Shown here: piece by piece, positions 7,090-48,339 of the stretch
Layout: the number at the start of each line of letters is the position of its first letter
Numbering within the stretch: the first letter of the stretch is position 1
Source: Cyanobacteria bacterium SIG29
GTDB taxonomy: Bacteria; Cyanobacteriota; Vampirovibrionia; Gastranaerophilales; Gastranaerophilaceae
Direction: 5' to 3'
Assembly (NCBI GenBank): GCA_015152515.1
Contig: SUTV01000003.1
Span: 62,001-126,000, forward strand
Length of the DNA stretch: 64,000 nt
Translations under genes and position numbers: made by a program
Notes under the pieces: generated by a model
The model's input: only the letters and a program-made list of their open reading frames with translations
What the model was told of the DNA's origin: nothing
The model's database searches: none

Positions 7090-8085
7090 TTATTTTTTAG
7101 AATAACCTTGTTTTAAAACTTGAGTTGTATATGGAGGGATTCCCAAATCCATATTATGTTCTTTACATGCTTTTTTAGCATAATCAACAATTTCATAATA
7201 ATGTTTTGGAATTGTAAAATCGCCATCAATAATATCACGATAGTCTATATCTAAAACGATTATTTTAACATTCAAATCAATCATTTTATCCATAAACATT
7301 TTAAATTCATTCAAATTATCATTATAACCATTAACAATAATGTATTTAATAATTATTGAATCATTACCCGCGACGCTAATATATTTTCTTATATTATCAA
7401 TTGATTTATCAAACTTATCTACTTGTTTTATTTTCAAATAAGTTTCTCTGCATCCAGAATCAAGAGCAGTACATAGTTCACCTTTTTTATTAGCCAAAAG
7501 CTGTTCAATAATAGGCATATATACAATATTATTTGTTGGAATGTAAATTGTTCCAACACCTCTTTTTAAGAAAGTTTCAATAATTTCTTGATGATTTTTA
7601 AGACAAGATATATTTCCACCTTGAAAATCTATATACAACTTTTCTTTATCAATCAAATCATTATCATAAAGCTCATTTATAAACTTTAAAACATCAAACA
7701 AAACTGGTTTATTAGCATCTTCTGCTATCTTTTCAAATGTTCTATTTCCTTGAGTGCAATAAACACACGCACAATTGCATTGAGTATAATGATTTAAAGT
7801 CATTTTATTTATTCTTAAATCATCAACTTGTTTATATGGTTGAAGATGTACACAATTCTTACATTCAGAAGGAATTTGACCATTTTTAAGCATTTTAATA
7901 AACTTCTTCTTATTTTCTAAAAAGCTTAAAATAGAATTTTTATTTGATAATTCACTGACAAAAGCAGGACCAATATTTGCGCTACAGCATGGTTCAAGCG
8001 CATTTCTACAAGAAAAATGCAAATGATTGTGCATCAATTCACACATATAAGATTTTTTCTTTTTAAATATATTTAAAAAATTCAT
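7090..8085 (-). CDS. Radical SAM protein, A-type, GGN variant
   Basis: 331 aa, first member of the array. A-type means: an N-terminal Cys box (one Cys near residue 5-15, a CC about 17 residues later, then C-x2-C before the core), followed by the SAM-cluster motif at residues ~95-110. Here these are CELMHNHLHF, EPCCS, SECKNC and CNCACVYC (C103/C107/C110). The SAM-binding GGE is replaced by FQGGNIS. The segment SGCRETYLKIKQVDKFD is the array-wide core signature. The leader MNFLNIFKKKKSY is unusual for A-type and resembles the TPR proteins' starts. It is divergent from the next gene across 55 bp holding both promoters. Confidence 0.9.
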   Translation of the reverse strand: MNFLNIFKKKKSYMCELMHNHLHFSCRNALEPCCSANIGPAFVSELSNKNSILSFLENKKKFIKMLKNGQIPSECKNCVHLQPYKQVDDLRINKMTLNHYTQCNCACVYCTQGNRTFEKIAEDANKPVLFDVLKFINELYDNDLIDKEKLYIDFQGGNISCLKNHQEIIETFLKRGVGTIYIPTNNIVYMPIIEQLLANKKGELCTALDSGCRETYLKIKQVDKFDKSIDNIRKYISVAGNDSIIIKYIIVNGYNDNLNEFKMFMDKMIDLNVKIIVLDIDYRDIIDGDFTIPKHYYEIVDYAKKACKEHNMDLGIPPYTTQVLKQGYSKK

Positions 8086-8140: not shown

Positions 8141-9133
8141 ATGAAAAAAAGATATTTTTGTAAAAGATTAAATGAAACTCTAAACTTTGATGCACTAAAA
8201 GTTTTTTATTGCTGTGCAACAAGAACTGGTCCATCTATTGATGTTCCTCAACCCAAAAGAATAAAAGATATTATTAAAAAGAGAAATTCTTTAATTAAAA
8301 TGTTAGATAGAGGTATTATTCCAACTGAATGCGAAGGTTGTTTTGATTTAGAAGAACAAAAAAATCCAAAGCCACTTTTTATTAGCCAACTATCTAAGCC
8401 ACAAAAAGCTAATTTAATAATCGTAAAACACTTTAAACAATGCGATTGCGCTTGTACATACTGTTGCGAACAATATTTATCTGGTAGAAAAATCGTACTA
8501 AAATCTAGAAAAAGCGATTATTATGATTTATTACCTATAATCAAAGAACTTTATAAACAAGATATGATTGATAAAAAAGAGTTAGATGTTCATTTTCAGG
8601 GCGGTAATGTGTCTGTTTTAGATGAATTTGAAGACTTAGTTAATATCTTTATGAAAAACGGAGTTAAACGCGTAGAAATCGCTACAAATGGCATTAAATA
8701 TTTACCTGCGATTGAAAGGATTTGTAATGATACTTTTGTAGATGTAAATATTTCAATTGACGCAGGCTCAAGAGAAACATATAAAAAAATAAAAACTGTT
8801 GATAAATTTGACGATTTAATTGAAAACTTAAAAAAATACGCAAAATTACCAATTTTATTAAGACTAAAATATATCCTAGTTCGCAATGTAAATGATACAA
8901 AAGAAGAACTAGAAAAATATATCAACTTAATGAAAGAAATTGGGATTACAAATTCTGAATTAATGATTGACCAATGCGATAATGAATTTATACAAAATGG
9001 AGAATTTAAAATTCCTGATTATTATTACGAATTATTTGAATTTTATAAAAATAAATGCCAAGAAAATAATATTGAAGCAAATATTTGGGAATATATTAAA
9101 GAAATATTAGACAAAGGCTCATTTTTCAAATAA
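8141..9133 (+). CDS. Radical SAM protein, A-type, GGN variant
   Basis: 330 aa. N-terminal Cys box: CKRLNETLNF, FYCCAT, TECEGC; SAM cluster CDCACTYC; SAM-binding loop FQGGNVSVL with Asn in place of Glu, as in its divergent neighbour. The core signature SIDAGSRETYKKIKTVDKFD and the RLKYILVRNVND strand are intact, so it looks functional. It is predicted to be translated from a leaderless mRNA. Its 3' end overlaps the convergent B-type gene by 15 bp. Substrate unknown. Confidence 0.9.
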   Translation: MKKRYFCKRLNETLNFDALKVFYCCATRTGPSIDVPQPKRIKDIIKKRNSLIKMLDRGIIPTECEGCFDLEEQKNPKPLFISQLSKPQKANLIIVKHFKQCDCACTYCCEQYLSGRKIVLKSRKSDYYDLLPIIKELYKQDMIDKKELDVHFQGGNVSVLDEFEDLVNIFMKNGVKRVEIATNGIKYLPAIERICNDTFVDVNISIDAGSRETYKKIKTVDKFDDLIENLKKYAKLPILLRLKYILVRNVNDTKEELEKYINLMKEIGITNSELMIDQCDNEFIQNGEFKIPDYYYELFEFYKNKCQENNIEANIWEYIKEILDKGSFFK

Positions 9134-10132
9134 ATTCTTTATTCTTTGGAAAAGACTTATCGGTTTTAATTCTTTAAAATAATCTGACAATATACAACTT
9201 TCATCCTTAAAAATTGGATTTTTTAAAAGTCTAACTAACTCATTATATTTTTCATGCGTTGGCAAAGACACATCTAATTTATTCATTAAATCATCAGATT
9301 CAATTTGTCTGTGATAATTAATAAAGAAAGCTACTGCATTATTATTCTTTGCAAATTTTACAAAATCTTTCATTTCTCTATAGTTTACAGAATTAACCAT
9401 AAAATTTAACTGTAAATGTTTAATATAACCTTGTTCTTTTAATTCAGATAAATATTTAACATTATCAACCAATGCTTTAAAATCACCACGTTCAACCAAT
9501 TTATTATATGTCTTTAAAGTTGTTGCATGTATTGAAATAATTACTGTATTTAATTTTTCTTTTAGTCCTATTTTTTCAATATTTTCTTTATTAAATAAAA
9601 TACCATTAGAAATAATATTAAACTTAATATTAGGGTTTATTTTTATAATCTTTTTTACAACTTCCATAGAATGTTTACTAGCAAATAATTCACCAGCCGA
9701 ATTCATTTCTACATATTCAGCTTGTTCTATTACAGGGGTAAAAATTCTATCAAAATTTTCTTCAATTCTTTTTTCTTTTTGTCTATTGTATTCTTCTTCT
9801 TCTTTGTTTTTTTCATTCCTACAAAAAATACAACGTACATTACAATGCCTATCATAACTAAATTCTATTTTTTTAGGATAAGGCGCAATATAATCAGGCT
9901 CAAATTCTTGCAAATAAGGGTCACAAACATCTAAATTACAATATTTATAATTATTTTCAATAAACTGTTTTCTAAATTCTTTTGCTTTTTCACCATTCCA
10001 TATTTCATCAAAAGTCTGTTCAAATATATTGCCAAATGAATAAAAATCAGTCCAATAACAACAACAACAATAAACTTCGCCTGTGTTTTGAATTTGAACA
10101 GTATTAAATGGATGTTTACATAGTTTAGCCAT
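9119..10132 (-). CDS. Radical SAM protein, B-type with N-terminal SPASM-like domain
   Basis: 337 aa. B-type means: a SPASM-like domain in front of the core, here C5, the cysteine run C22-C25, then FGNIFEQTFDEIWNGEKA, and C65/C70. The SAM cluster is CNVRCIFC (C97/C101/C104). GGE is replaced by MNSAGELFAS. The core continues with ISNGILFNKENIEKIG and IISIHATTLKTYNKLV. The end, LKPISLFQRIKNLFEK, is a short amphipathic tail shared by most B-types. A TATAAT lies 11 nt before ATG with no ribosome-binding site, so the leader is very short. Role unknown. Confidence 0.9.
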   Translation of the reverse strand: MAKLCKHPFNTVQIQNTGEVYCCCCYWTDFYSFGNIFEQTFDEIWNGEKAKEFRKQFIENNYKYCNLDVCDPYLQEFEPDYIAPYPKKIEFSYDRHCNVRCIFCRNEKNKEEEEYNRQKEKRIEENFDRIFTPVIEQAEYVEMNSAGELFASKHSMEVVKKIIKINPNIKFNIISNGILFNKENIEKIGLKEKLNTVIISIHATTLKTYNKLVERGDFKALVDNVKYLSELKEQGYIKHLQLNFMVNSVNYREMKDFVKFAKNNNAVAFFINYHRQIESDDLMNKLDVSLPTHEKYNELVRLLKNPIFKDESCILSDYFKELKPISLFQRIKNLFEK

Positions 10133-12298: not shown

Positions 12299-12589
12299 CT
12301 ATGTCATTAGAACAGAATTGTTTAAATTTATAGCATTATCTATGTATAATAGTGCTTCTTTATAGTTCTTTGTATCTTTATATATTAACGCTTTTGTAAC
12401 CCAATACATATCGTTATTTTGTTCTAAATCAATTGCTTTGTTAATATATTCTATTGATTGTTCGAAATTTTTAAGTTTTCTATTTGTTTCAGCTTTTAAT
12501 GCAAAACCAATTGGCATATCTAGTATTTCTACGGTATGCACTTTTATTTCTTTCTTTTTAAAAAGCATTTTACTAATAAAATTAAACAT
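12299..12589 (-). CDS. Small TPR-repeat protein
   Basis: 96 aa. The N-terminus MFNFISKMLFKKKE is a Lys/aromatic leader, followed by two TPR units (FALKAETNRKLKNFEQSIEYI, then ALIYKDTKNYKEALLYI) with the usual small/aromatic spacing. TPRs mediate protein-protein contacts. It is one of three similar small TPR genes scattered through the radical SAM array (others at 28407 and 35181), all with the same promoter layout, suggesting an adaptor or scaffold role. It ends abruptly after the second repeat (AINLNNSVLMT). Confidence 0.8.
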   Translation of the reverse strand: MFNFISKMLFKKKEIKVHTVEILDMPIGFALKAETNRKLKNFEQSIEYINKAIDLEQNNDMYWVTKALIYKDTKNYKEALLYIDNAINLNNSVLMT

Positions 12590-27342: not shown

Positions 27343-28332
27343 TCACTCATCATAAATTTGCTTTATACACCAAAATTCACAATCTGGGGTGAATGACAAA
27401 TAAATATTAGGGCTTAATTCCTTAGACCTCTTTGCAAAATAATTAATAACCTCTTTCAAAGAACCTTCTGCTTCTTTATGTTGATTTTCTGATAAAAAAG
27501 AAAACTCCATATCTATTAATATTTTTTTAACTTTTATTGCTTGACATTTTTCAATAAATGCCCTAGCTTCTTCAACATTATCATTTACTCCAGGTATAAT
27601 AATATATTTTACAAAAATATTTGCATTAGGATTTTTTTTAGAAACCTCAATATATTTTTTTAAATTTTTCCAAACAACATCATATGCTTTCACACGCTTT
27701 ATTTTTTCATACATTTCTTTTGTTCCAGAATCAACCGAAACAATAATTTTAGAAGGAATTGTTGCCAAAGCTGAAGCAATACACTCAGAATATTTAATAG
27801 CAGATGTTAAATATTCGATAACACAATCATTTACTTGTGCAAAATGAGTCATATATTCCAACTCGCCTTCTGGATATTCACAACATTCACCACCAGAAAC
27901 ACTTATAGCACAACCAGGTAAAATCATGTTTTCATTGCGTAAATTTTCTAAAATAGGACGAATATCATATGTTTTTGTATTATTAACTTCTTTTTTTCTC
28001 TGAGCATCCCCTTTTGACAAAGTACAATAAAAACAATCGCAAATACTACATTTTGTTTTATAAGCTAGAGAAAGAATATTAAACCCAACACTCTCATCCC
28101 ACTCTTTTTCTTCTAAATTATGACATTTTTTACAAACATCAGGAATAATGCCTTTTTTAAAATTATCAACATATTTATTTCTAGCAATTAAATATTGTTC
28201 TTTTGTTATAACAGAACCATCATAATCTTTAAAACACAAAAGTTCATCCACAACCTTTGCACAACAAAAAGCAACAACATCTGGATGAAATATTAAGTCA
28301 TTAAATAATGTCTTACAACAAAGAAATTTCAT
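27343..28332 (-). CDS. Radical SAM protein, A-type, GGEC subfamily, abnormal CX4CX2C motif
   Basis: 329 aa, strong ribosome-binding site region (gaggagaaaaggg). Box: CCKTLFNDLIF, AFCCAK, DVCKKC. The SAM-cluster region reads CSICDCFYC (C95, C98, C100, C103). Relative to its paralogs one residue is inserted, so the spacing is CX4CX2C instead of CX3CX2C. Loop SGGECCEYPEGELEY. Core: SVDSGTKEMYEKIKRVKAYDVVW. Otherwise intact with no stop or shift, so the insertion looks tolerated. Upstream is a TPR gene on the opposite strand; downstream is a membrane protein gene. Confidence 0.88.
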   Translation of the reverse strand: MKFLCCKTLFNDLIFHPDVVAFCCAKVVDELLCFKDYDGSVITKEQYLIARNKYVDNFKKGIIPDVCKKCHNLEEKEWDESVGFNILSLAYKTKCSICDCFYCTLSKGDAQRKKEVNNTKTYDIRPILENLRNENMILPGCAISVSGGECCEYPEGELEYMTHFAQVNDCVIEYLTSAIKYSECIASALATIPSKIIVSVDSGTKEMYEKIKRVKAYDVVWKNLKKYIEVSKKNPNANIFVKYIIIPGVNDNVEEARAFIEKCQAIKVKKILIDMEFSFLSENQHKEAEGSLKEVINYFAKRSKELSPNIYLSFTPDCEFWCIKQIYDE

Positions 28333-28371: not shown

Positions 28372-28400
28372 TTCACATATAAAAAAATTACATGTATAAT
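28372..28400 (+). promoter_or_regulatory. Leaderless promoter of the TPR gene
   Basis: A -35-like TTCACA (28372-28377), a 17-bp spacer and TATAAT (28395-28400), then 6 nt to the ATG at 28407. This is the best-formed promoter of the leaderless group. Confidence 0.7.
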
Positions 28401-28406
28401 AAAATT

Positions 28407-28892
28407 ATGAATGTTATAGAACTATTTAAGAAAAAAAAGAATAAAAAAATAGAAGCTATAAAGCTTGCACTCAACGCTGAAGTTTTTAATAAAAATGGTG
28501 AAATAAAAAAATCAATCAATTTATTAAATAAAGCAATTAATTTTGATAAAGAAAATGATTCACTTTTTTACGAAAGAGCCCTATGCTTTTTGAAACAAAA
28601 ACAATATAAAAAAGCCTTGTCAGACATAAATAATGCTTTAAAAATAAACAAAAATATTTATTACTATCACTTAGTAAAATCTGATGTCTGCCATTTCTTA
28701 AATAAAAACGAAGAAGAAAATGAATCTATTCAAAAAGCAATAAAATTATTTAATAAACCACATTTATATTATGAAAAAAGAATAGAACAATCCATTCAAA
28801 ATGAAAACGACAAATTTACAAATTTATATAAATTACGATTAAAGAAATTAATAGAATTTGAAAATACACTAATTCAAGAAATAACTATGTAA
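28407..28892 (+). CDS. Small TPR-repeat protein
   Basis: 161 aa from ATG 28407. An in-frame ATG at 28392 falls inside the -10 region and is rejected. The leader MNVIELFKKKKNKK is Lys-rich, as in the other two TPR genes. At least three TPR-like units follow (ALNAEVFNKNGEIKKSINLL, ALCFLKQKQYKKALSDI, and a third with SDVCHFLNKNEEENESI), then a helical tail. It stands alone on the plus strand between minus-strand radical SAM genes. Probable adaptor; no enzymatic motif. Confidence 0.8.
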   Translation: MNVIELFKKKKNKKIEAIKLALNAEVFNKNGEIKKSINLLNKAINFDKENDSLFYERALCFLKQKQYKKALSDINNALKINKNIYYYHLVKSDVCHFLNKNEEENESIQKAIKLFNKPHLYYEKRIEQSIQNENDKFTNLYKLRLKKLIEFENTLIQEITM

Positions 28893-28912: not shown

Positions 28913-29896
28913 TTATATTTTACTACTGTATTTTTGTAAAAATTCAATATACTGAATCACTTGTTCTTCAAATGTAATATTAAAAGGATAAGTTTTTAAT
29001 TCTTTTATCGTGTCTATTAATTTCTGATCAGGAAATTTATTTTTATTTTTTTCAAACCACACATATTCTATGGCTATTTCTATATTTCTACAAGAAACAG
29101 AATTACACTTTTCTATAAATTTTTTAACTTCTTTTTTATTATCATTGATTCCAGGTAAAATTATATATTTTATTACAACTTTTGCATTTTTATTATTTTC
29201 AGTAGCTTTTACATATCTAGATAAATTTTCCCATACTTTATCATATGTTTTAACTCTTTTAATTTTTTCATAAGTTGATTTAAATCCAGAATCTACAGAA
29301 ATTTTCAAAACACATTTTTCAGTTTTTAATACAGATTCAATTGCTTTTGAAAAAATAATACCAGAGCTTAATATTTCTAAATTACATCCTAAAACAGAAG
29401 ATAAATAAAGGATATATTCTAACTCTCCTTTTGGATATTCACAACATTCACCACCAGCAATCGTTATATTGCAATCTTTATCAATCAAATTTTGATTACA
29501 CAAATCATTCAACACCGGAATAACATCATAACAAACTCTTGTATTTAATTCTTCTTTTGTTTGCGTACTAGTAGTAACTAAAGAACAATATATACAATTA
29601 CAAGAACACTTCGTTCTGTTTGATATAATTATTCTCTTTATTTTAGGTAAATCATCCCACTCTTTTTCTTCTATACAAGGACATCCCTTACAATACAAGG
29701 GAATTTCACCTTTTTTAAACATATCAATATACAATGTTCTTTGCTTATTATATTCTTCAAAATCAAAATGATTACCTTTAAAATTTTCTATAAATACGGT
29801 TCTTTCTCTATTTTTTGGCCCACAACAACATGGAATTATCTCAGATTGTGCCAAAACCATACAATTTAAAATATATTCACAACACTTATAGTTCAT
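28913..29896 (-). CDS. Radical SAM protein, A-type, GGEC subfamily
   Basis: 327 aa. Box: CCEYILNCMVL, IPCCCG, LYCKGC; SAM cluster CSCNCIYC; loop AGGECCEYPKGELEY. Core: SVDSGFKSTYEKIKRVKTYDKVW and IKYIILPGINDNKKEV. An extra Cys pair follows GGE, typical of this five-member subfamily. It follows 29906-30913 after 9 bp with agggt as ribosome-binding site, and is the last gene of a minus-strand run of six A-type genes. Confidence 0.91.
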   Translation of the reverse strand: MNYKCCEYILNCMVLAQSEIIPCCCGPKNRERTVFIENFKGNHFDFEEYNKQRTLYIDMFKKGEIPLYCKGCPCIEEKEWDDLPKIKRIIISNRTKCSCNCIYCSLVTTSTQTKEELNTRVCYDVIPVLNDLCNQNLIDKDCNITIAGGECCEYPKGELEYILYLSSVLGCNLEILSSGIIFSKAIESVLKTEKCVLKISVDSGFKSTYEKIKRVKTYDKVWENLSRYVKATENNKNAKVVIKYIILPGINDNKKEVKKFIEKCNSVSCRNIEIAIEYVWFEKNKNKFPDQKLIDTIKELKTYPFNITFEEQVIQYIEFLQKYSSKI

Positions 29897-29905
29897 TTTT
29901 AAACC

Positions 29906-30913
29906 CTACTTATAATTAAATTCTTTATCTACAAACGACCATAAAAAAGGTTCTTCAACACCTTCAATACTAACAAAAATTTGTTTCTTTTGAGAATTTC
30001 TGAAAAAATAATTCAAACAATGTTTAATATTTACAAAATTTTCTAAGTTTGACTTGTTTTGAGATAGCCACCTATGTTCCACATCTAACACAATAGACTT
30101 ACAATTAACTTGTGTACACTTTTCTAAAAAGGCATCAATTTCTTCTTCATTATCATTTACACCTGGTATCAAAATATATTTCAAATCTACACGACCCTTG
30201 TCATACTCTTCTATAGCAGAAACATATCGTTTTATATTATTCCAAACTCTATCATATGCTTTTATTCTTTTAATTTTTTCATAAGTTTCTTTCGTCCCTG
30301 AGTCAACTGAAATTTTCAAAACAGAATCAGATGTTTTTAGAGCACATTCTATTTCTTTAGAATAATTCAAACCAGAACTTAAAAACATAATGTGCCCTTT
30401 ATGAAATAATATAAAATAAACAAGCCATTTCAATTCTTCCTCTGGATACTCACTGCACTCTCCACCACAAATTAGAAAACGGCAATTTGGCGCAATATAA
30501 TTATTATTTTTCAAATATTCTAAAATTGGTTTTATATCATAAGGTTTCCTCTGGTTCATTTGTTTTTTAAATTCTTCATTCTCACCAAATGCAGCTTGCT
30601 CACAATATATACAATTACAAGAACACTTCGTTCTATTTGATATAATAATATTTGTAAGTGCTGTAGAATAATCACTATTTCTAGGAGATTCAAAAATAGT
30701 ACAATTATTAAAACAAGGTAATGCTATGTTCTGTTTTGTTTTTTCAATAAATGCATCTCTTTTTGAAAAATACTCTTGTATTTTATCAATTTCACCATTG
30801 TAATTGTTTACAAAAGGAGTAATATCACCTTCTATAGAAAACGAGCAACAAGGTCTAATCGTATTTTTATAAAAAGCTATTTCATGCAATAAAAACTCAC
30901 AACAATAATTCAT
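29906..30913 (-). CDS. Radical SAM protein, A-type, GGEC subfamily
   Basis: 335 aa. Box: CCEFLLHEIAF, RPCCSF, then PCFNNC with an extra residue between the cysteines (CX3C, where most have CX2C). SAM cluster CSCNCIYC; loop CGGECSEYPEEELKW, with a Cys directly before GGE. Core: SVDSGTKETYEKIKRIKAYDRVW. It starts 10 bp after the upstream gene and has a modest aaaga ribosome-binding site. Confidence 0.91.
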   Translation of the reverse strand: MNYCCEFLLHEIAFYKNTIRPCCSFSIEGDITPFVNNYNGEIDKIQEYFSKRDAFIEKTKQNIALPCFNNCTIFESPRNSDYSTALTNIIISNRTKCSCNCIYCEQAAFGENEEFKKQMNQRKPYDIKPILEYLKNNNYIAPNCRFLICGGECSEYPEEELKWLVYFILFHKGHIMFLSSGLNYSKEIECALKTSDSVLKISVDSGTKETYEKIKRIKAYDRVWNNIKRYVSAIEEYDKGRVDLKYILIPGVNDNEEEIDAFLEKCTQVNCKSIVLDVEHRWLSQNKSNLENFVNIKHCLNYFFRNSQKKQIFVSIEGVEEPFLWSFVDKEFNYK

Positions 30914-31957: not shown

Positions 31958-32941
31958 TTAAGACATTTGTCCATATTGCTGATTAAACCAATATTCAGTT
32001 TCGCAAGAATATGTAAAATTCATATTCTGTGTTTTATTTATTAATTTTTTAATTTCCATAATAGACTTGGGCATAGATTCAGATTTATGTTCGGAAAACC
32101 AATAATGTTCAATATCAATATGTATATTTTTACAGCCAATGTCTTGGCACTTGCGGATAAATGCTTTAAATTCATCTATACTATCATTTATATTCGGAAT
32201 AATAATATATTTTATTTCTACAATAGAATTTGGATTATCTTTTGCCGATTGAACGTATTTCTCCAAGTTTTTCCATACTCTATTAAAAGCATTAACTTGT
32301 TTAATTTTCTTATATGTTTTTTCGGTTCCAGAATCTGGAGAAATAGATAATTCAGCACTACCAGAACGTAAAATTTTTGCCGTAGCCTCAGAATAAAAAA
32401 TCCCAGAACTTAATAAACTTATTTTACACCCCATAAATGAAGCAAAATATATTATCCAATCAACTTCCTCCTGTGGAAATTCGGTGTATTCTCCACCACC
32501 TATTATAATCATTGAATTTTCTTTAATTAAATTTTTTGTACGAAATTGTTCTAATATTGGAATTACATCATAAGATTTTCTTGTATTATAGAAATGCTTT
32601 GCTTCAGGATTATCATGAGTATAAACACAATAAATACAATTACAAGAACACTTTGCCTTATTTGCTATAATTATCCTGTCAAAATAAATTTCATCAACAT
32701 CCCACTCTTGATTTTTGATAATAGGACAACCTTCACAACAAGACGGAATTATTCCTTGTTTAAACTGTTCTATATATTCTTTTCTTTTCTCTATATAACG
32801 ATTAATATCAAAATCATCACCTTCTTTAAAATCAAAGAATTTTACAGTTTCATTATTCATTGAACTTGAACAACAAGGTTTTATATCAAACTGATCAAAT
32901 ACAATTTGGTGCAACAAATATTCACAACAATTATATTTCAT
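31958..32941 (-). CDS. Radical SAM protein, A-type, GGEY variant of the GGEC subfamily
   Basis: 327 aa from ATG 32941, with GGAAGG 4 nt upstream; the longer frame to 33001 starts in the intergenic region. Box: CCEYLLHQIVF, KPCCSS, SCCEGC; SAM cluster CSCNCIYC; loop GGGEYTEFPQEEVDW, where Tyr replaces the subfamily Cys. Core: SPDSGTEKTYKKIKQVNAFNRVW, with Pro in place of the usual Val/Ile/Leu in S-x-D. Member of the minus-strand run 28913-35063. Confidence 0.91.
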   Translation of the reverse strand: MKYNCCEYLLHQIVFDQFDIKPCCSSSMNNETVKFFDFKEGDDFDINRYIEKRKEYIEQFKQGIIPSCCEGCPIIKNQEWDVDEIYFDRIIIANKAKCSCNCIYCVYTHDNPEAKHFYNTRKSYDVIPILEQFRTKNLIKENSMIIIGGGEYTEFPQEEVDWIIYFASFMGCKISLLSSGIFYSEATAKILRSGSAELSISPDSGTEKTYKKIKQVNAFNRVWKNLEKYVQSAKDNPNSIVEIKYIIIPNINDSIDEFKAFIRKCQDIGCKNIHIDIEHYWFSEHKSESMPKSIMEIKKLINKTQNMNFTYSCETEYWFNQQYGQMS

Positions 32942-33003
32942 TATACCTTCCATACCGTTAACTAAAACCATATCACAAATTAATAATTTAACTTCTTTCA
33001 TTT

Positions 33004-35180: not shown

Positions 35181-35495
35181 ATGCTGAAGTTTTTTTCAAA
35201 ATTAATAAATAAAAAAGAAAATAAAAAAGAAACAGATAAAAAGGTACTACCAATTAGTGATGCTTTAGAAGCCGAAACTCTTCGCAGATTAGGTGATTAT
35301 AAGAATGCACTTGTTCATATCGAAAAGGCGATAAATGGCGAACCAAATAATGATATGTTTTATGCAACTAAAGCACAAATCCTAATCAAAATGAACGATT
35401 CACATAATGCAACTAAAGCAATAAACAAAGCAATCGAATTAAATCCTAATATTATAATGTATAAAAAAATTCATGAAGAAATCATGAAATTATAA
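35181..35495 (+). CDS. Small TPR-repeat protein
   Basis: 104 aa from ATG 35181; the same frame is open to 35031, but the promoter lies inside that extension. Lys-rich leader MLKFFSKLINKKENKK, then two TPR units (ALEAETLRRLGDYKNALVHI, and AQILIKMNDSHNATKAI) ending ELNPN. Most similar to the TPR protein at 12299. The following radical SAM gene starts 5 bp later, so these two may be co-expressed. Confidence 0.8.
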   Translation: MLKFFSKLINKKENKKETDKKVLPISDALEAETLRRLGDYKNALVHIEKAINGEPNNDMFYATKAQILIKMNDSHNATKAINKAIELNPNIIMYKKIHEEIMKL

Positions 35496-40878: not shown

Positions 40879-41853
40879 ATGAAATTCAAATGTTGTGAAT
40901 GGGCACTTGCTCATCTTGTTATAAATGCTGATGATTTAACATATTGTTGTGCTTCCTTTGATAAAAAGCTAACCTTTTTAGAAAACTATCACGGTGAGAG
41001 CGTTGATATTGATAAATATATTGAAAATAGAAAGAATTATATAGAACAATGTAAACAAGGTAATTTCCCTGAAGTTTGCCGAGACTGTCCTACTTTAGAA
41101 GAAAGAGAATGGGATGAAACAGTTGGGTTTATTGATGTATCTGTTTCGAATAGAACAAAATGTTCTTGTAACTGCACATACTGTATAATTTCTGGCGGTG
41201 GACGAGAAGATAGAAAAAGAGAATTAAACACAAGAGAAACATATGATGTTCGTCCTGTTTTAACACAATTCAAAGAAAAAAATATGTTTAAAAAAGGATG
41301 TCATTTTATTATCGGTGGTGGAGAATGCGCAGAATATCCAAAAGGCGAATTAAAATGGCTTATTGATTTTGCTTTTTCTCAACAAGGTTCTATTGAGTTT
41401 TTAAGCGCTGGAATTACATATTCTCAAGATATAACAGATGCTCTTAAAGTTGGCGAAACGAAGTTAAAAGTATCAGTTGATGCTGGTACAAAAAAAGTTT
41501 ATGAAGCAGTAAAACGCGTAAAAGGATATGACCACGTTTGGAAAAACTTAAAAAAATATATTGAAGCCACAAAGAAAAATCCAAAAGCTGAAGTTACAAT
41601 CAAATATATTATTATTCCAGGTGTTAACGATAATATGAAGGAAGCAAAAGAATTCATTAATCGTTGCAATAAAATAAAATGCCAAAACATAGAAATCAAT
41701 GTTGAATTTTTCTGGATGAATGAAAACTTTGATAAACCAATTTCAGATAATTTAAGAGAAGTTTTGACATATTTTAATAAACAACCAAATCTATGTTTTT
41801 CTTCAAACATTTCAACACATGTAAAAAAATGGTTAGACAAAAATTTAGCTTAG
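40879..41853 (+). CDS. Radical SAM protein, A-type, GGEC subfamily
   Basis: 324 aa; TATAAT just upstream and ribosome-binding site aaggg. Box: CCEWALAHLVI, TYCCAS, EVCRDC; SAM cluster CSCNCTYC; loop GGGECAEYPKGELKW. Core: SVDAGTKKVYEAVKRVKGYDHVW and IKYIIIPGVNDNMKEA. It is the fifth member of the GGEC subfamily but lies ~8 kb from the others and on the opposite strand. Last radical SAM gene of the array; its end overlaps pnuC by 4 bp. Confidence 0.92.
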   Translation: MKFKCCEWALAHLVINADDLTYCCASFDKKLTFLENYHGESVDIDKYIENRKNYIEQCKQGNFPEVCRDCPTLEEREWDETVGFIDVSVSNRTKCSCNCTYCIISGGGREDRKRELNTRETYDVRPVLTQFKEKNMFKKGCHFIIGGGECAEYPKGELKWLIDFAFSQQGSIEFLSAGITYSQDITDALKVGETKLKVSVDAGTKKVYEAVKRVKGYDHVWKNLKKYIEATKKNPKAEVTIKYIIIPGVNDNMKEAKEFINRCNKIKCQNIEINVEFFWMNENFDKPISDNLREVLTYFNKQPNLCFSSNISTHVKKWLDKNLA

Positions 41854-43676: not shown

Positions 43677-44726
43677 TTACCTTACCTTAATACTTTCATC
43701 TAAATATTTAATTAACGGATATATAAAGAATTCTATAATTCTTCTTTTGCCGATATTAATTTCATTAGTAGTTGTCATACCTGTTTTAATAGATTGCTCT
43801 TTGCCTTCAACCAATAATGTTGTATTTAATGGAGAAATATAAACATCATAAACTGGTCCTAATCTTTCATCTTCAACACTATTTGCCCCAACAACAGTTA
43901 CTTCACCTTTAATAATTCCATATTTTTGGAAATTAAAAGTATCTACTTTTACAGATACATCCATTCCTTCATCTATAAAACCAACATCTTGATTCATAAC
44001 TTTAGCTTTTATTGTTAATTTAGCATCCTTTGGAACAACAGACATTAGTTCTTCAGCAGGTGAAACAACACCACCAACTGTGTGGATTTTTACATTGTTT
44101 ATATAACCATCAATGGGTGATTTTACTGTTTGAATTTGTTTTTCTAACTGTTCTTTTTTATTATTTAATTCAGAATAACTAGCTTCTAATGCTTTTAATT
44201 CATGAGATAAACTACTAACCAACTCAACAACTTCATCATAAGTATTTTGAGGAATAATATCTAAAACCTTGCTTAATCTTTGTTTTCTATCTTTTGCAAT
44301 TGAAAGTTTTGTTTTTGTTGAAGATATTTGTTCAAAAACTTTTGCTTGTTCTTCTCTAACATTGTTTAATTCTAAGCCAGGTTCATGTTCAGCAGGAGAA
44401 ATAATTGCTAAAACTTGATTTTCTTCAACAAAATCACCCTCTTTAACGAGGATTGAAGAAACAACACCCTTATCTAATGCCTTAACTATTTTTTGTTCAC
44501 CATCTGGAATAATAATTCCTCTCGCAGTAACAACAACATCTACTTTTCCAAAATACATCCAAGCTGTAGCAGAAAAAATAAATACAATTACAATCCAAAA
44601 TATAACAGGTCCAAGTGGATTAATAGGATTATGTTCTATTTCTGCCAATATAGGTTCAAATTCATGTGCATCATTTTCTTTATACAAAAAGAAATTTTTT
44701 ATTTTATCTAGAATTTTTTTAATCAA
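43677..44726 (-). CDS. HlyD-family membrane fusion protein (type I secretion)
   Basis: 349 aa. Periplasmic adaptor linking the ABC exporter to TolC. An N-terminal cytoplasmic segment and one membrane span (GPVIFWIVIVFIFSATAWMYF) are followed by the biotinyl-lipoyl-like strands (VVTARGIIIPDGEQKIVKAL). Then comes a shortened coiled coil (about residues 125-200), and IKSPIDG-like VKSPIDGYINNVKIHTVGG with the family's C-terminal beta domain. It is the last gene of the operon TolC-like, ABC, HlyD; an ABC gene precedes it by 11 bp. Confidence 0.9.
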   Translation of the reverse strand: MIKKILDKIKNFFLYKENDAHEFEPILAEIEHNPINPLGPVIFWIVIVFIFSATAWMYFGKVDVVVTARGIIIPDGEQKIVKALDKGVVSSILVKEGDFVEENQVLAIISPAEHEPGLELNNVREEQAKVFEQISSTKTKLSIAKDRKQRLSKVLDIIPQNTYDEVVELVSSLSHELKALEASYSELNNKKEQLEKQIQTVKSPIDGYINNVKIHTVGGVVSPAEELMSVVPKDAKLTIKAKVMNQDVGFIDEGMDVSVKVDTFNFQKYGIIKGEVTVVGANSVEDERLGPVYDVYISPLNTTLLVEGKEQSIKTGMTTTNEINIGKRRIIEFFIYPLIKYLDESIKVR

Positions 44727-44737
44727 AATATTTTCTC

Positions 44738-46861
44738 CTAATTTGATTGAGCAAGATACAATTTTTTATAATATCCATCTTTATTTATAAGGTCATTATG
44801 TGTGCCTGCTTCAACAATACGACCATTATCAAAGCAAACAATATAATCACAACTTTGAATTGTAGATAATCTATGAGCAATAATCAAAGTTGTTCTATTT
44901 TTTGTAATCATTTCTAAATTATCTCTAATAACTTTTTCAGATTCATAATCAAGCGCTGAAGTTGCCTCATCAAAAATTAAAATTTTAGGGTCAGTAATTA
45001 ACGCCCTTGCAATTGCAATTCTTTGTTTTTGTCCACCAGATAAGCTAGAACCTCTTTCTCCAACTTGAGTATCATAACCTTTTGGAAGTTTAGAAATAAA
45101 TTCATGAGCACCAGAAATTCTAGCAATTTGAATAACTGCTTCCATAGGCATATTTGGTCTAGGAAGAACAATATTGTCTTTAATTGTACCAGAGAACAAA
45201 TAGTTTTCCTGAAGAACAATACCAATATTAGTTCTTAACCACATTGGATCAATATTTCTAATATCAATACCATCAATATAAATAGTACCTTCTGTAGGAT
45301 AATATAATCTTTGAATTAATTTAGTCAAAGTTGATTTACCGCTACCACTTCTACCAACAATACCAATTTTCAAACCAGGTCTTATATCTAGATTAACTTG
45401 ATTTAAAACATTTGGAAGTTCAACATTATATTTGAAGGATAAATTTTCTAAACGAATATGTCCTTGAACATTTCTTAAAGTAACTGCTGTTTTATTTTCA
45501 ACTTCAATCGGACTATTTAAAATATCACCAATTCTATCAACAGCCAACAAAGTTTGTTGGAATTCATTCCATAAATTAACAAGTCTAAGAACTGGCGCAC
45601 TAAATTGTCCTGCAAACATTTGGAAAGCAATTAATTGACCTATTGTTAATTTATTATCTATTACAAGAACAACACCAACATACAAAATCGCGATTGTCAT
45701 TAGTTTTTGTAAAAACTTTGTAAGAGAACTAGTAAAATTACCCATAACAGCAAGATTAAAACTAGATTTAATATATTTACCTAATTTTTCTTCCCATTTT
45801 TTGAACATTGAACCTTCAACGCCAAGCGATTTAACAGTTTGAATACCTGTAATAGATTCAACTAAATAAGAATTTGATTGAGCTCCCATTTGAAATTTAT
45901 CTTCTAATCTTACTCTTAATTCAGGAGTAATCATTAAGAAAATAATACCGATAATTGCAATAAAAGTAATTGCAATTAAAGTCAATTTTACGCTATACAT
46001 AAGCATTATTACAACAAACACAATAGAGAAAAATAAATCTAAAATAACAGATACTGATTTATCTGTGATAAATTCTCTTATTCTATCTAACTCACGAACT
46101 CTCGCCGCAATATTACCAACTTGCCTATTTTCAAAATAAACATAATACAATTTAAATAAATGTTGGAATAATTTAGAACCCAATTTTGCATCTATTTTAC
46201 TAGTCGTATGAATAAAAATATAATTTCTTGCAAGGTTTAAAAGCAATTCAAAAACAGAAACAAAAACAAAAGCAAAAGCTAAAACATTCAATGTTGAAAC
46301 TGTTCTATGAACCAAAACTTTATCTAAAATAACCTGCGTAAATAATGGAGTTACAAGTCCAAACAATTGAATTACAAAAGAACCCAATAAAACTTGTCCC
46401 ACAATTTTTTTATATTTTAAAATTTCAACAAAGAACCATTTAAAACCAAATTTAACTTCTTCATTTAGTAATTTATGTTTTAAAACTAATACAAAATCTT
46501 CAATTGTATTTTGAAATTCAGATAAACAAACAGCTTTTGGTGCTTTTTCTAAAGGTGATATAACCATAACTTTATCTTCTTCAGGTTTTATAGCTAAAAC
46601 AACAACATAATCACCGTCTTTCAGCCTAACAATTGCAGGAAGTGGATATTTTGGAAGAATATTTTCTATTCTAAAATTTTTCTTTTTTACTACAAATCCT
46701 GAATTTTGAGCAATTCTAATAATTTCTTCTGGCGAAATATCAGAAGATTCAATACCATAATTTCTAACTATTGAAGTCATATCAATATCTATTTGATTGA
46801 ATCTAGCTACTATTTCTAATGATATTAAACCAGTATTAATATTATTCTTTTTTTCTTCCAT
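44738..46861 (-). CDS. Type I secretion ABC exporter with C39-like domain
   Basis: 707 aa, HlyB/LapB type. Residues 1-130 are a C39-peptidase-like domain; no Cys is present at the catalytic position near the N-terminus, so it is probably a non-cleaving substrate-docking domain. A six-span ABC membrane domain follows. The nucleotide-binding domain has Walker A GRSGSGKST, signature LSGGQKQRIAIARAL, Walker B ILIFDEATSALD and the switch His in IIAHRLST. Exports unfolded, probably RTX- or adhesin-like proteins in one step. No substrate gene is in the window. Confidence 0.93.
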   Translation of the reverse strand: MEEKKNNINTGLISLEIVARFNQIDIDMTSIVRNYGIESSDISPEEIIRIAQNSGFVVKKKNFRIENILPKYPLPAIVRLKDGDYVVVLAIKPEEDKVMVISPLEKAPKAVCLSEFQNTIEDFVLVLKHKLLNEEVKFGFKWFFVEILKYKKIVGQVLLGSFVIQLFGLVTPLFTQVILDKVLVHRTVSTLNVLAFAFVFVSVFELLLNLARNYIFIHTTSKIDAKLGSKLFQHLFKLYYVYFENRQVGNIAARVRELDRIREFITDKSVSVILDLFFSIVFVVIMLMYSVKLTLIAITFIAIIGIIFLMITPELRVRLEDKFQMGAQSNSYLVESITGIQTVKSLGVEGSMFKKWEEKLGKYIKSSFNLAVMGNFTSSLTKFLQKLMTIAILYVGVVLVIDNKLTIGQLIAFQMFAGQFSAPVLRLVNLWNEFQQTLLAVDRIGDILNSPIEVENKTAVTLRNVQGHIRLENLSFKYNVELPNVLNQVNLDIRPGLKIGIVGRSGSGKSTLTKLIQRLYYPTEGTIYIDGIDIRNIDPMWLRTNIGIVLQENYLFSGTIKDNIVLPRPNMPMEAVIQIARISGAHEFISKLPKGYDTQVGERGSSLSGGQKQRIAIARALITDPKILIFDEATSALDYESEKVIRDNLEMITKNRTTLIIAHRLSTIQSCDYIVCFDNGRIVEAGTHNDLINKDGYYKKLYLAQSN

Positions 46862-46871
46862 AATATACCTT

Positions 46872-48251
46872 TTAATAAGATGTTATTGTTTGTATTGCTT
46901 TTTGAATAGCAACGGTTGTTATTGCATTTTTTTCATATTCAATTTTTTGTTTTAAAGTTTCAATTTTACTTTCATTTAACTCAATAGGAGAAATCACTTT
47001 TTTATCAAGCAATTTTTCCAATGATTTTTCTTTTTCAAATAATTCTTTATAAGCAAGATTACTATCTTGAGCTTGTTTTTCTAAATAAAATAAATTACCT
47101 CTCATAATAGAAATTTTATTCATTAATTCAGCGATAGCTTTATCTCGTTCAACTAATTGCTTTTTTAATTCAGCAGCAGCCTTTTGAACCATTGCACTCG
47201 TTTTCAAACCATCAAAAACTGGCAATACAACAGAACCACCAACAGTATAATTTGATGGACTAATATCTTTTAAAGCATCATTATAACTAGAATGATCTGA
47301 ACCATATATGTAATATCTACCATAAGCATTTACTCTTGGAAGATAATTTTTTTTCGCAATTCTATATGTTAATTCTTTTTTCTTTACTTCTTTTTCTTGA
47401 ATTTGCCAAACAATACTTTTTGTATAATCACTAAATTCTAATGGGTCAAAATCAGGTTTTTTAAATTCTTTAACTACAATATTATCTATATCATAATTTT
47501 CACCAGTATAAAAAGAAATCCAATTAATTGATTCTGAAACAATTGCTTTTAATTCTGAAATACTTTTTTGAGTATTCATAACTAACGCTCTTTGTTCATT
47601 TACTTCTGTTCTAGAAATTTCTTTTGCTTCTAATAAGCGTTCTTTCATTTCAAGATTTTCTTGCGCCAATTTTAAAATTTCGTTATTAATTTCTATTTGT
47701 TTTTGAGCAATTAAAAGTTTGCAATAAGTATCTATCAAAGTCATATCTAACTCTTGAAATTGCAATTTTAATGCAAGTTTTTTTATTTCAGTGTCTTCTT
47801 TTGCAATATCTAAATTATTACGCCTAATACCAAAATCGAACAAATTATAAGACAATGTAATTCCAAATAAAGATTGAAATCTTGTATATGGATTAATAAA
47901 AGCATCACCAACAGTAGTTACAGAAGAATTCCAAATATCATTAAAATTCTTTGTATATTCAGTTGTTGCAACAGCATTTATTTTAGGGAAATATTCACTT
48001 CTAGCTTCTCTAATTCCTTGCTTTGTTATAAAAATATCAAAATCCGCCAATTTTATATCATAAGAATGATTTTTAGCTTTTTTAGAAATATCATCAAAAT
48101 TAATACTTCCTGTTATTAATTTAACAGAATCTTGTTCCATTGTAACAGCATTTTCACTGTGTTCTTCAACAGCAAAAACAATTCCAATATTAAGACAAAA
48201 TAAAGAAAAACAAACTATAAATAATTTAAAAATATTCTTTCTTATTTGCAT
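46872..48251 (-). CDS. TolC-family outer membrane efflux protein
   Basis: About 459 aa from the preferred ATG 48251; the frame extends to ATG 48302. The chosen start places a signal peptide (MQIRKNIFKLFIVCFSLF to VFA) at the N-terminus. Two long coiled-coil repeats show TolC-type alternation, with a central YNLFDFGIRRNNLDIAKED and VVLPVFDGLKTSAMVQKAA, both positioned like the strand-turn sites of TolC. Outer-membrane channel of the downstream HlyB/HlyD pair (10 bp and 11 bp spacing). It implies a diderm cell. Confidence 0.88.
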   Translation of the reverse strand: MQIRKNIFKLFIVCFSLFCLNIGIVFAVEEHSENAVTMEQDSVKLITGSINFDDISKKAKNHSYDIKLADFDIFITKQGIREARSEYFPKINAVATTEYTKNFNDIWNSSVTTVGDAFINPYTRFQSLFGITLSYNLFDFGIRRNNLDIAKEDTEIKKLALKLQFQELDMTLIDTYCKLLIAQKQIEINNEILKLAQENLEMKERLLEAKEISRTEVNEQRALVMNTQKSISELKAIVSESINWISFYTGENYDIDNIVVKEFKKPDFDPLEFSDYTKSIVWQIQEKEVKKKELTYRIAKKNYLPRVNAYGRYYIYGSDHSSYNDALKDISPSNYTVGGSVVLPVFDGLKTSAMVQKAAAELKKQLVERDKAIAELMNKISIMRGNLFYLEKQAQDSNLAYKELFEKEKSLEKLLDKKVISPIELNESKIETLKQKIEYEKNAITTVAIQKAIQTITSY

Positions 48252-48339
48252 TATAAATTGATGTGCCACAACTTCCCTACCCATAAAAATAGTAGCATAC
48301 ATGGAGTTATTTTTCTTTTGTTGTTAATTTAATTTTACA

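Follow-up and report, generated by a model that had tools for sequence, protein, structure and literature searches.

The spacing of the radical-SAM signature is known to vary: a 2011 paper gives it as CX3CX2C or CX4CX2C (PMC3087415), and CX5CX2C and CX14CX2C are named as spacing variants in another (PMC4389238). Chemistry has been assigned to two proteins with a widened first spacing: GenD1 (Cx4Cx2C) methylates gentamicin A to X2 in vitro (PMC4340712), and HcgA (CX5CX2C) produces 5'-deoxyadenosine (PMC10100467). The CX4CX2C spacing is thus not new in itself; it is a known type of variant.

The analyses presented here concern one such spacing within an array of close relatives. The window (the whole stretch of DNA that was analysed, 64,000 nucleotides) contains 19 A-type radical-SAM genes between positions 7090 and 41853, mixed with B-type genes, in surroundings that look like a surface-glycan locus. 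Within this array the gene at 27343–28332 carries an extra residue in its cluster motif (Table 1), and judged from sequence comparison this insertion looks like a working variant, neither an error nor a dead gene. The publications found on radical SAM in Gastranaerophilales, Melainabacteria and Gastranaerophilaceae/Vampirovibrionia include none whose title or abstract opening describes the A-type array or family.

Table 1. Features of the array that bear on the stretched motif (positions within the window)
Feature	Position	Strand	Remarks
A-type radical-SAM gene (target)	27343..28332	(-)	329 aa; N-terminal C6, C23, C67, C70; core CX4CX2C
Stretched cluster motif CSICDCFYC	28024..28050	(-)	C95-x4-C100-x2-C103, plus C98
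Small TPR protein gene	28392..28892	(+)	Divergent, 60 bp from target
Paralog, normal CX3CX2C (CSCNCIYC)	28913..29896	(-)	Sequence, alignment
Paralog, normal CX3CX2C (CSCNCIYC)	29906..30913	(-)	Sequence, alignment
Paralog, normal CX3CX2C (CSCNCIYC)	31958..33001	(-)	Sequence, alignment
Closest paralog in genome, CX3CX2C (CSCNCTYC)	40879..41853	(+)	46% identity; control model m27e76dc96e01

The target, its motif and its family

The target reading frame is open and intact, and when set against the aligned family it has one additional residue after the first ligand cysteine, ahead of the cysteine that precedes the aspartate. Both the translation and the alignment bear out the original prediction as to the insertion and the numbering of the four cysteines, and the CX4CX2C spacing that it reported stands out against all 130 aligned canonical relatives, which have exactly CX3CX2C. 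C95, C100, Y102 and C103 fall in columns that are fully conserved among these 130 proteins, and the GGE-type SAM-contact motif is present (G147, G148, E149). With three motif cysteines and an aromatic residue before the last of them, the protein belongs with the radical-SAM enzymes as a described spacing variant, while a strict CX3CX2C definition places it outside the canonical subset. The PF04055 score of the target (27.1) lies below the gathering cut-off (29.5), as does that of the canonical paralog at 28913–29896 (26.2); of the other insertion proteins introduced below, L141:2982-3965 scores 45.4 bits and L142:1463-2422 gave no PF04055 match at E 0.01. Pfam searches of the target returned neither a B12-binding nor a SPASM domain, and its four N-terminal cysteines are conserved.

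The family is heavily expanded in Gastranaerophilales, with 36 A-type members in the 1.5 Mb of the target's own genome. All 36 motifs were read: 34 are CX3CX2C, one (the target) is CX4CX2C and in one the motif has gone. Among the 135 family ORFs taken from the fetched loci of 41 genomes of the genus, to which the set is confined, 130 have CX3CX2C, four have CX4CX2C and one is without the motif.

An AlphaFold2 model of the target, built with 35 sequences, has a mean pLDDT of 92.3, with values of 85 and 84 in the blocks of residues 91–110 that hold the motif; the control model of the paralog at 40879–41853 (pLDDT 90.1) has nearly the same order of elements to about residue 300. The predicted structure has the radical-SAM core fold. 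Its best structural match is SkfB (Z 15.9, 3.1 Å over 210), and the other top matches (SuiB, PFL-activating enzyme, DesII and BlsE) are likewise all radical-SAM enzymes. This likeness of fold leaves the substrate unnamed; a sugar or peptide from the surface-glycan locus would be our guess.

Two further features of the array were observed. The B-type gene at 9119–10132 has its SPASM domain (PF13186) at residues 5–66, at the N-terminus rather than the C-terminus. At the edge of the array, positions 43677–48302 encode a type I secretion set comprising an HlyD-like protein, an ABC transporter whose N-terminal domain is C39-like, and a TolC-like protein (the last identified by eye).

Recurrence and history of the extra residue

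The nearest relative of the target (78% identity) is found in a metagenome-assembled genome, Lapin-002 (Gastranaerophilales; genome G023, locus L037, record CANPYW010000016.1). Its motif is again CSICDCFYC, with all nine residues as in the target, and four of the nine motif codons differ between the two genes, all synonymously, including the serine codon (AGT versus TCA). Residues 87–106 form one of five runs of identity of at least 12 residues between the two proteins, and over the genes as a whole dN is 0.17 and dS 1.56 (NG86), giving a dN/dS of about 0.11. The question of whether orthologs elsewhere keep the insertion can therefore be answered in the affirmative for the only ortholog found, and the normally spaced orthologs that would have spoken against the original prediction did not appear.

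A first scan covered 383 genomes of the order, and a looser one covered 41 genomes of the genus, with carriers among the matches listed. A third scan, of 383 family-level genomes, used the pattern C-x-x-C-[DN]-C-x-[YF]-C, with the second residue loosely restricted and the middle cysteine required. It returned 62 places, for all of which the surrounding DNA was taken; four lie in radical-SAM ORFs, in three genomes of one genus, and the other 58 lie in no radical-SAM ORF (ORFs of at least 60 or at least 80 aa). The pattern match G011:C2:14760 was set aside as chance, being antisense within a gene read as IF2. Genome G021 contributes two radical-SAM genes with the insertion, C68:2994-3962 (CSSCDCFYC) and C90:1463-2422 (CSVCDCMYC), which rule out the target as a lone oddity. 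For the C68 gene there are seven orthologs at 62–67% identity, all with normal spacing.

Trees were built from 54, 38 and 35 of the 135 ORFs (nearest and outgroup rows), the latter two without the motif columns. On the 38-protein tree the four carriers need two changes, and constraining them to one clade carries a penalty of 60.6 log units (AU p 5.8e-10); with L047 and two other long rows excluded, constraining three carriers to one clade still costs 44.2 log units (AU p 5.9e-5). The AU test thus rejects a single origin without reversals, and on these trees two or more separate gains of the extra residue are probable. Since the target and its ortholog are sister, in the midpoint-rooted tree free of L047, to a group of 25 within which the G021:C68 gene is nested, two gains are a simpler account than one gain followed by two losses, although a single gain with subsequent losses is still conceivable in formal terms. 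The branches of the insertion genes are long. L047 itself is placed with the target pair (support 87/89 and 91/89), and as the program warns of long branches there, the number of gains may, on the sequence data, be two or three.

Probable activity of the stretched form and alternative readings

We consider it probable, at roughly three chances in four, that the target is an active radical-SAM enzyme with a one-residue bulge in its first ligand loop. C95, C100 and C103 would then hold the [4Fe-4S] cluster with CX4CX2C spacing, and SAM would be bound at the fourth iron and, we infer, cleaved there as usual; Cys98 would be the counterpart of the additional cysteine, probably not a ligand, that the usual CSC[DN]C motif contains, and the same extra residue would have arisen more than once in the family. 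The precedents of GenD1 and HcgA indicate that CX4CX2C spacing is compatible with SAM chemistry. All four insertion proteins, including the target, have intact ligand cysteines, aromatic residue and GG motif, and all four keep every one of the 22 positions whose conservation among the 130 canonical members reaches 85%, as do 61 of those 130 members.

The original prediction had allowed that the enzyme might have lost its SAM chemistry, and a pseudoenzyme, with its site broken by the extra residue and the protein persisting in a binding or regulatory role, is indeed conceivable given that such loss is known in the family. A full-length paralog in the same genome (L140:229-1221; G000:C5:135028-136020) has lost the three motif cysteines and the GG while retaining the N-terminal cysteines, and from its sequence is likely to be a radical-SAM pseudoenzyme. 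The long branches of the insertion genes also fit with loss, as does a dN/dS that is somewhat higher in the pairs containing an insertion protein (0.110 and 0.129) than in two canonical pairs (0.068 and 0.063), a comparison that comprises these four pairs, with dS near saturation (dS was not computable for a fifth). Against this, the motif-less paralog keeps 15 of the 22 family positions where the insertion proteins keep all 22, and the nine motif residues have been maintained through synonymous changes. Since that paralog is degenerate, true loss in this family looks unlike the target, and with the 22 positions kept and a dN/dS of about 0.11 the suggestion of lost chemistry finds no support. 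The 22 positions may be kept for folding alone, and we regard a pseudoenzyme as unlikely.

At E 1e-40, relatives of the motif-less paralog occur in three other genomes of the genus. Among them the motif of L206 is normal, L207 is a fragment without the motif region, and L208 (G012:C1:17702-18694) is, according to the search, broken by one TAA codon.

There is a slim chance that the stretch, having recurred, serves to tune the chemistry, with SAM or the cluster shifted such that a different hydrogen is abstracted or another SAM bond is cleaved, or with Cys98 recruited as a ligand. If this were true, the array would amount to a natural spacing-swap experiment in radical-SAM chemistry.

A changed ligand set, in which CX2CXCX2C lets another cysteine triple hold the cluster and so alters the geometry or cleavage of SAM, would fit with the presence of Cys98 in all four insertion proteins; C95, C98 and C103 would give CX2CX4C, the spacing of ThiC. 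Yet the cysteine at +2 (the CSC[DN]C type) is also present in 81 of the 130 canonical members, and in all 25 canonical members of the clade of the 38-protein tree in which the insertions arose, so that the presence of Cys98 needs no special reason. Considering that C95, C100 and C103 are the residues that align with fully conserved columns, we find a change of ligands improbable. The original proposal that a cluster still forms using another cysteine set accordingly divides: formation of the cluster is favoured, whereas the alignment points to the same three cysteines as in the canonical members.

Finally, a sequencing, binning or assembly artefact, including the 3-nt error that could have undone the original prediction, would accord with the named records being metagenome-assembled genomes and the remaining genomes fragmented assemblies, but is excluded in practice because independent assemblies hold identical motif residues across synonymous differences and another genome supplies two more insertion genes.

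Neighbouring genes and comparison with known systems

A TPR gene is located beside the L037 ortholog (L037:5471-5938) at the same place as beside the target. By script, all three insertion genes have a TPR neighbour, as does the L037 ortholog by reading (the script accepted ATG starts only, and the L037/L154 copy was therefore not counted as an insertion gene), compared with 19 of the 114 canonical genes for which context was available. Since TPR genes do adjoin those 19, the neighbour is a trait of the array and not of the insertion; a link between the two was dropped, because normally spaced orthologs of the G021:C68 gene have a TPR neighbour too. Small TPR proteins of about 90–170 aa with a shared pattern (12299–12589, 28392–28892 and 35181–35495) adjoin A-type genes in several genomes, and it is possible that they serve as a scaffold or partner of the A-type enzymes. 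In addition, short Cys-rich peptides with a related acidic leader (L142:2487-2840, L200:1252-1587 and L201:685-984) are encoded directly after TupA-like ATP-grasp genes, which were recognized by a Pfam match in the case of L142 and by eye in the others; one of the peptide genes immediately precedes a CX4CX2C radical-SAM gene. These peptides look like precursors of modified peptides.

In its predicted fold the target resembles SkfB, SuiB, anSME, PFL-activating enzyme and DesII, at 10–17% identity in the alignments; any SPASM/Twitch clusters of these enzymes are C-terminal, whereas the extra cysteines of the target are N-terminal. In its spacing it resembles the cobalamin-dependent gentamicin radical-SAM methyltransferases GenD1 and GenK, which have Cx4Cx2C (PMC4340712). 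These enzymes bind cobalamin, whereas the target has 329 residues and no Pfam match to a B12-binding domain, and the genomic contexts are unrelated. HcgA and HmdB also have a widened first spacing and form 5'-deoxyadenosine (PMC10100467). They differ in having two extra residues, in being BioB-like and in acting in the FeGP cofactor pathway.

The closest comparison is with the canonical A-type paralogs of the array itself, which share the conserved positions, the N-terminal cysteines and the GG, and have CX3CX2C where the target has CX4CX2C. To our knowledge, the known radical-SAM spacing variants sit in isolated, distant enzymes. Here stretched and normal forms occur among close relatives, as with CSSCDCFYC and its seven normally spaced orthologs, and a change of spacing alone calls for caution in inferring loss of function. 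Side by side, the two forms offer a test bed for the effect of one loop residue on cluster potential, SAM binding and cleavage.
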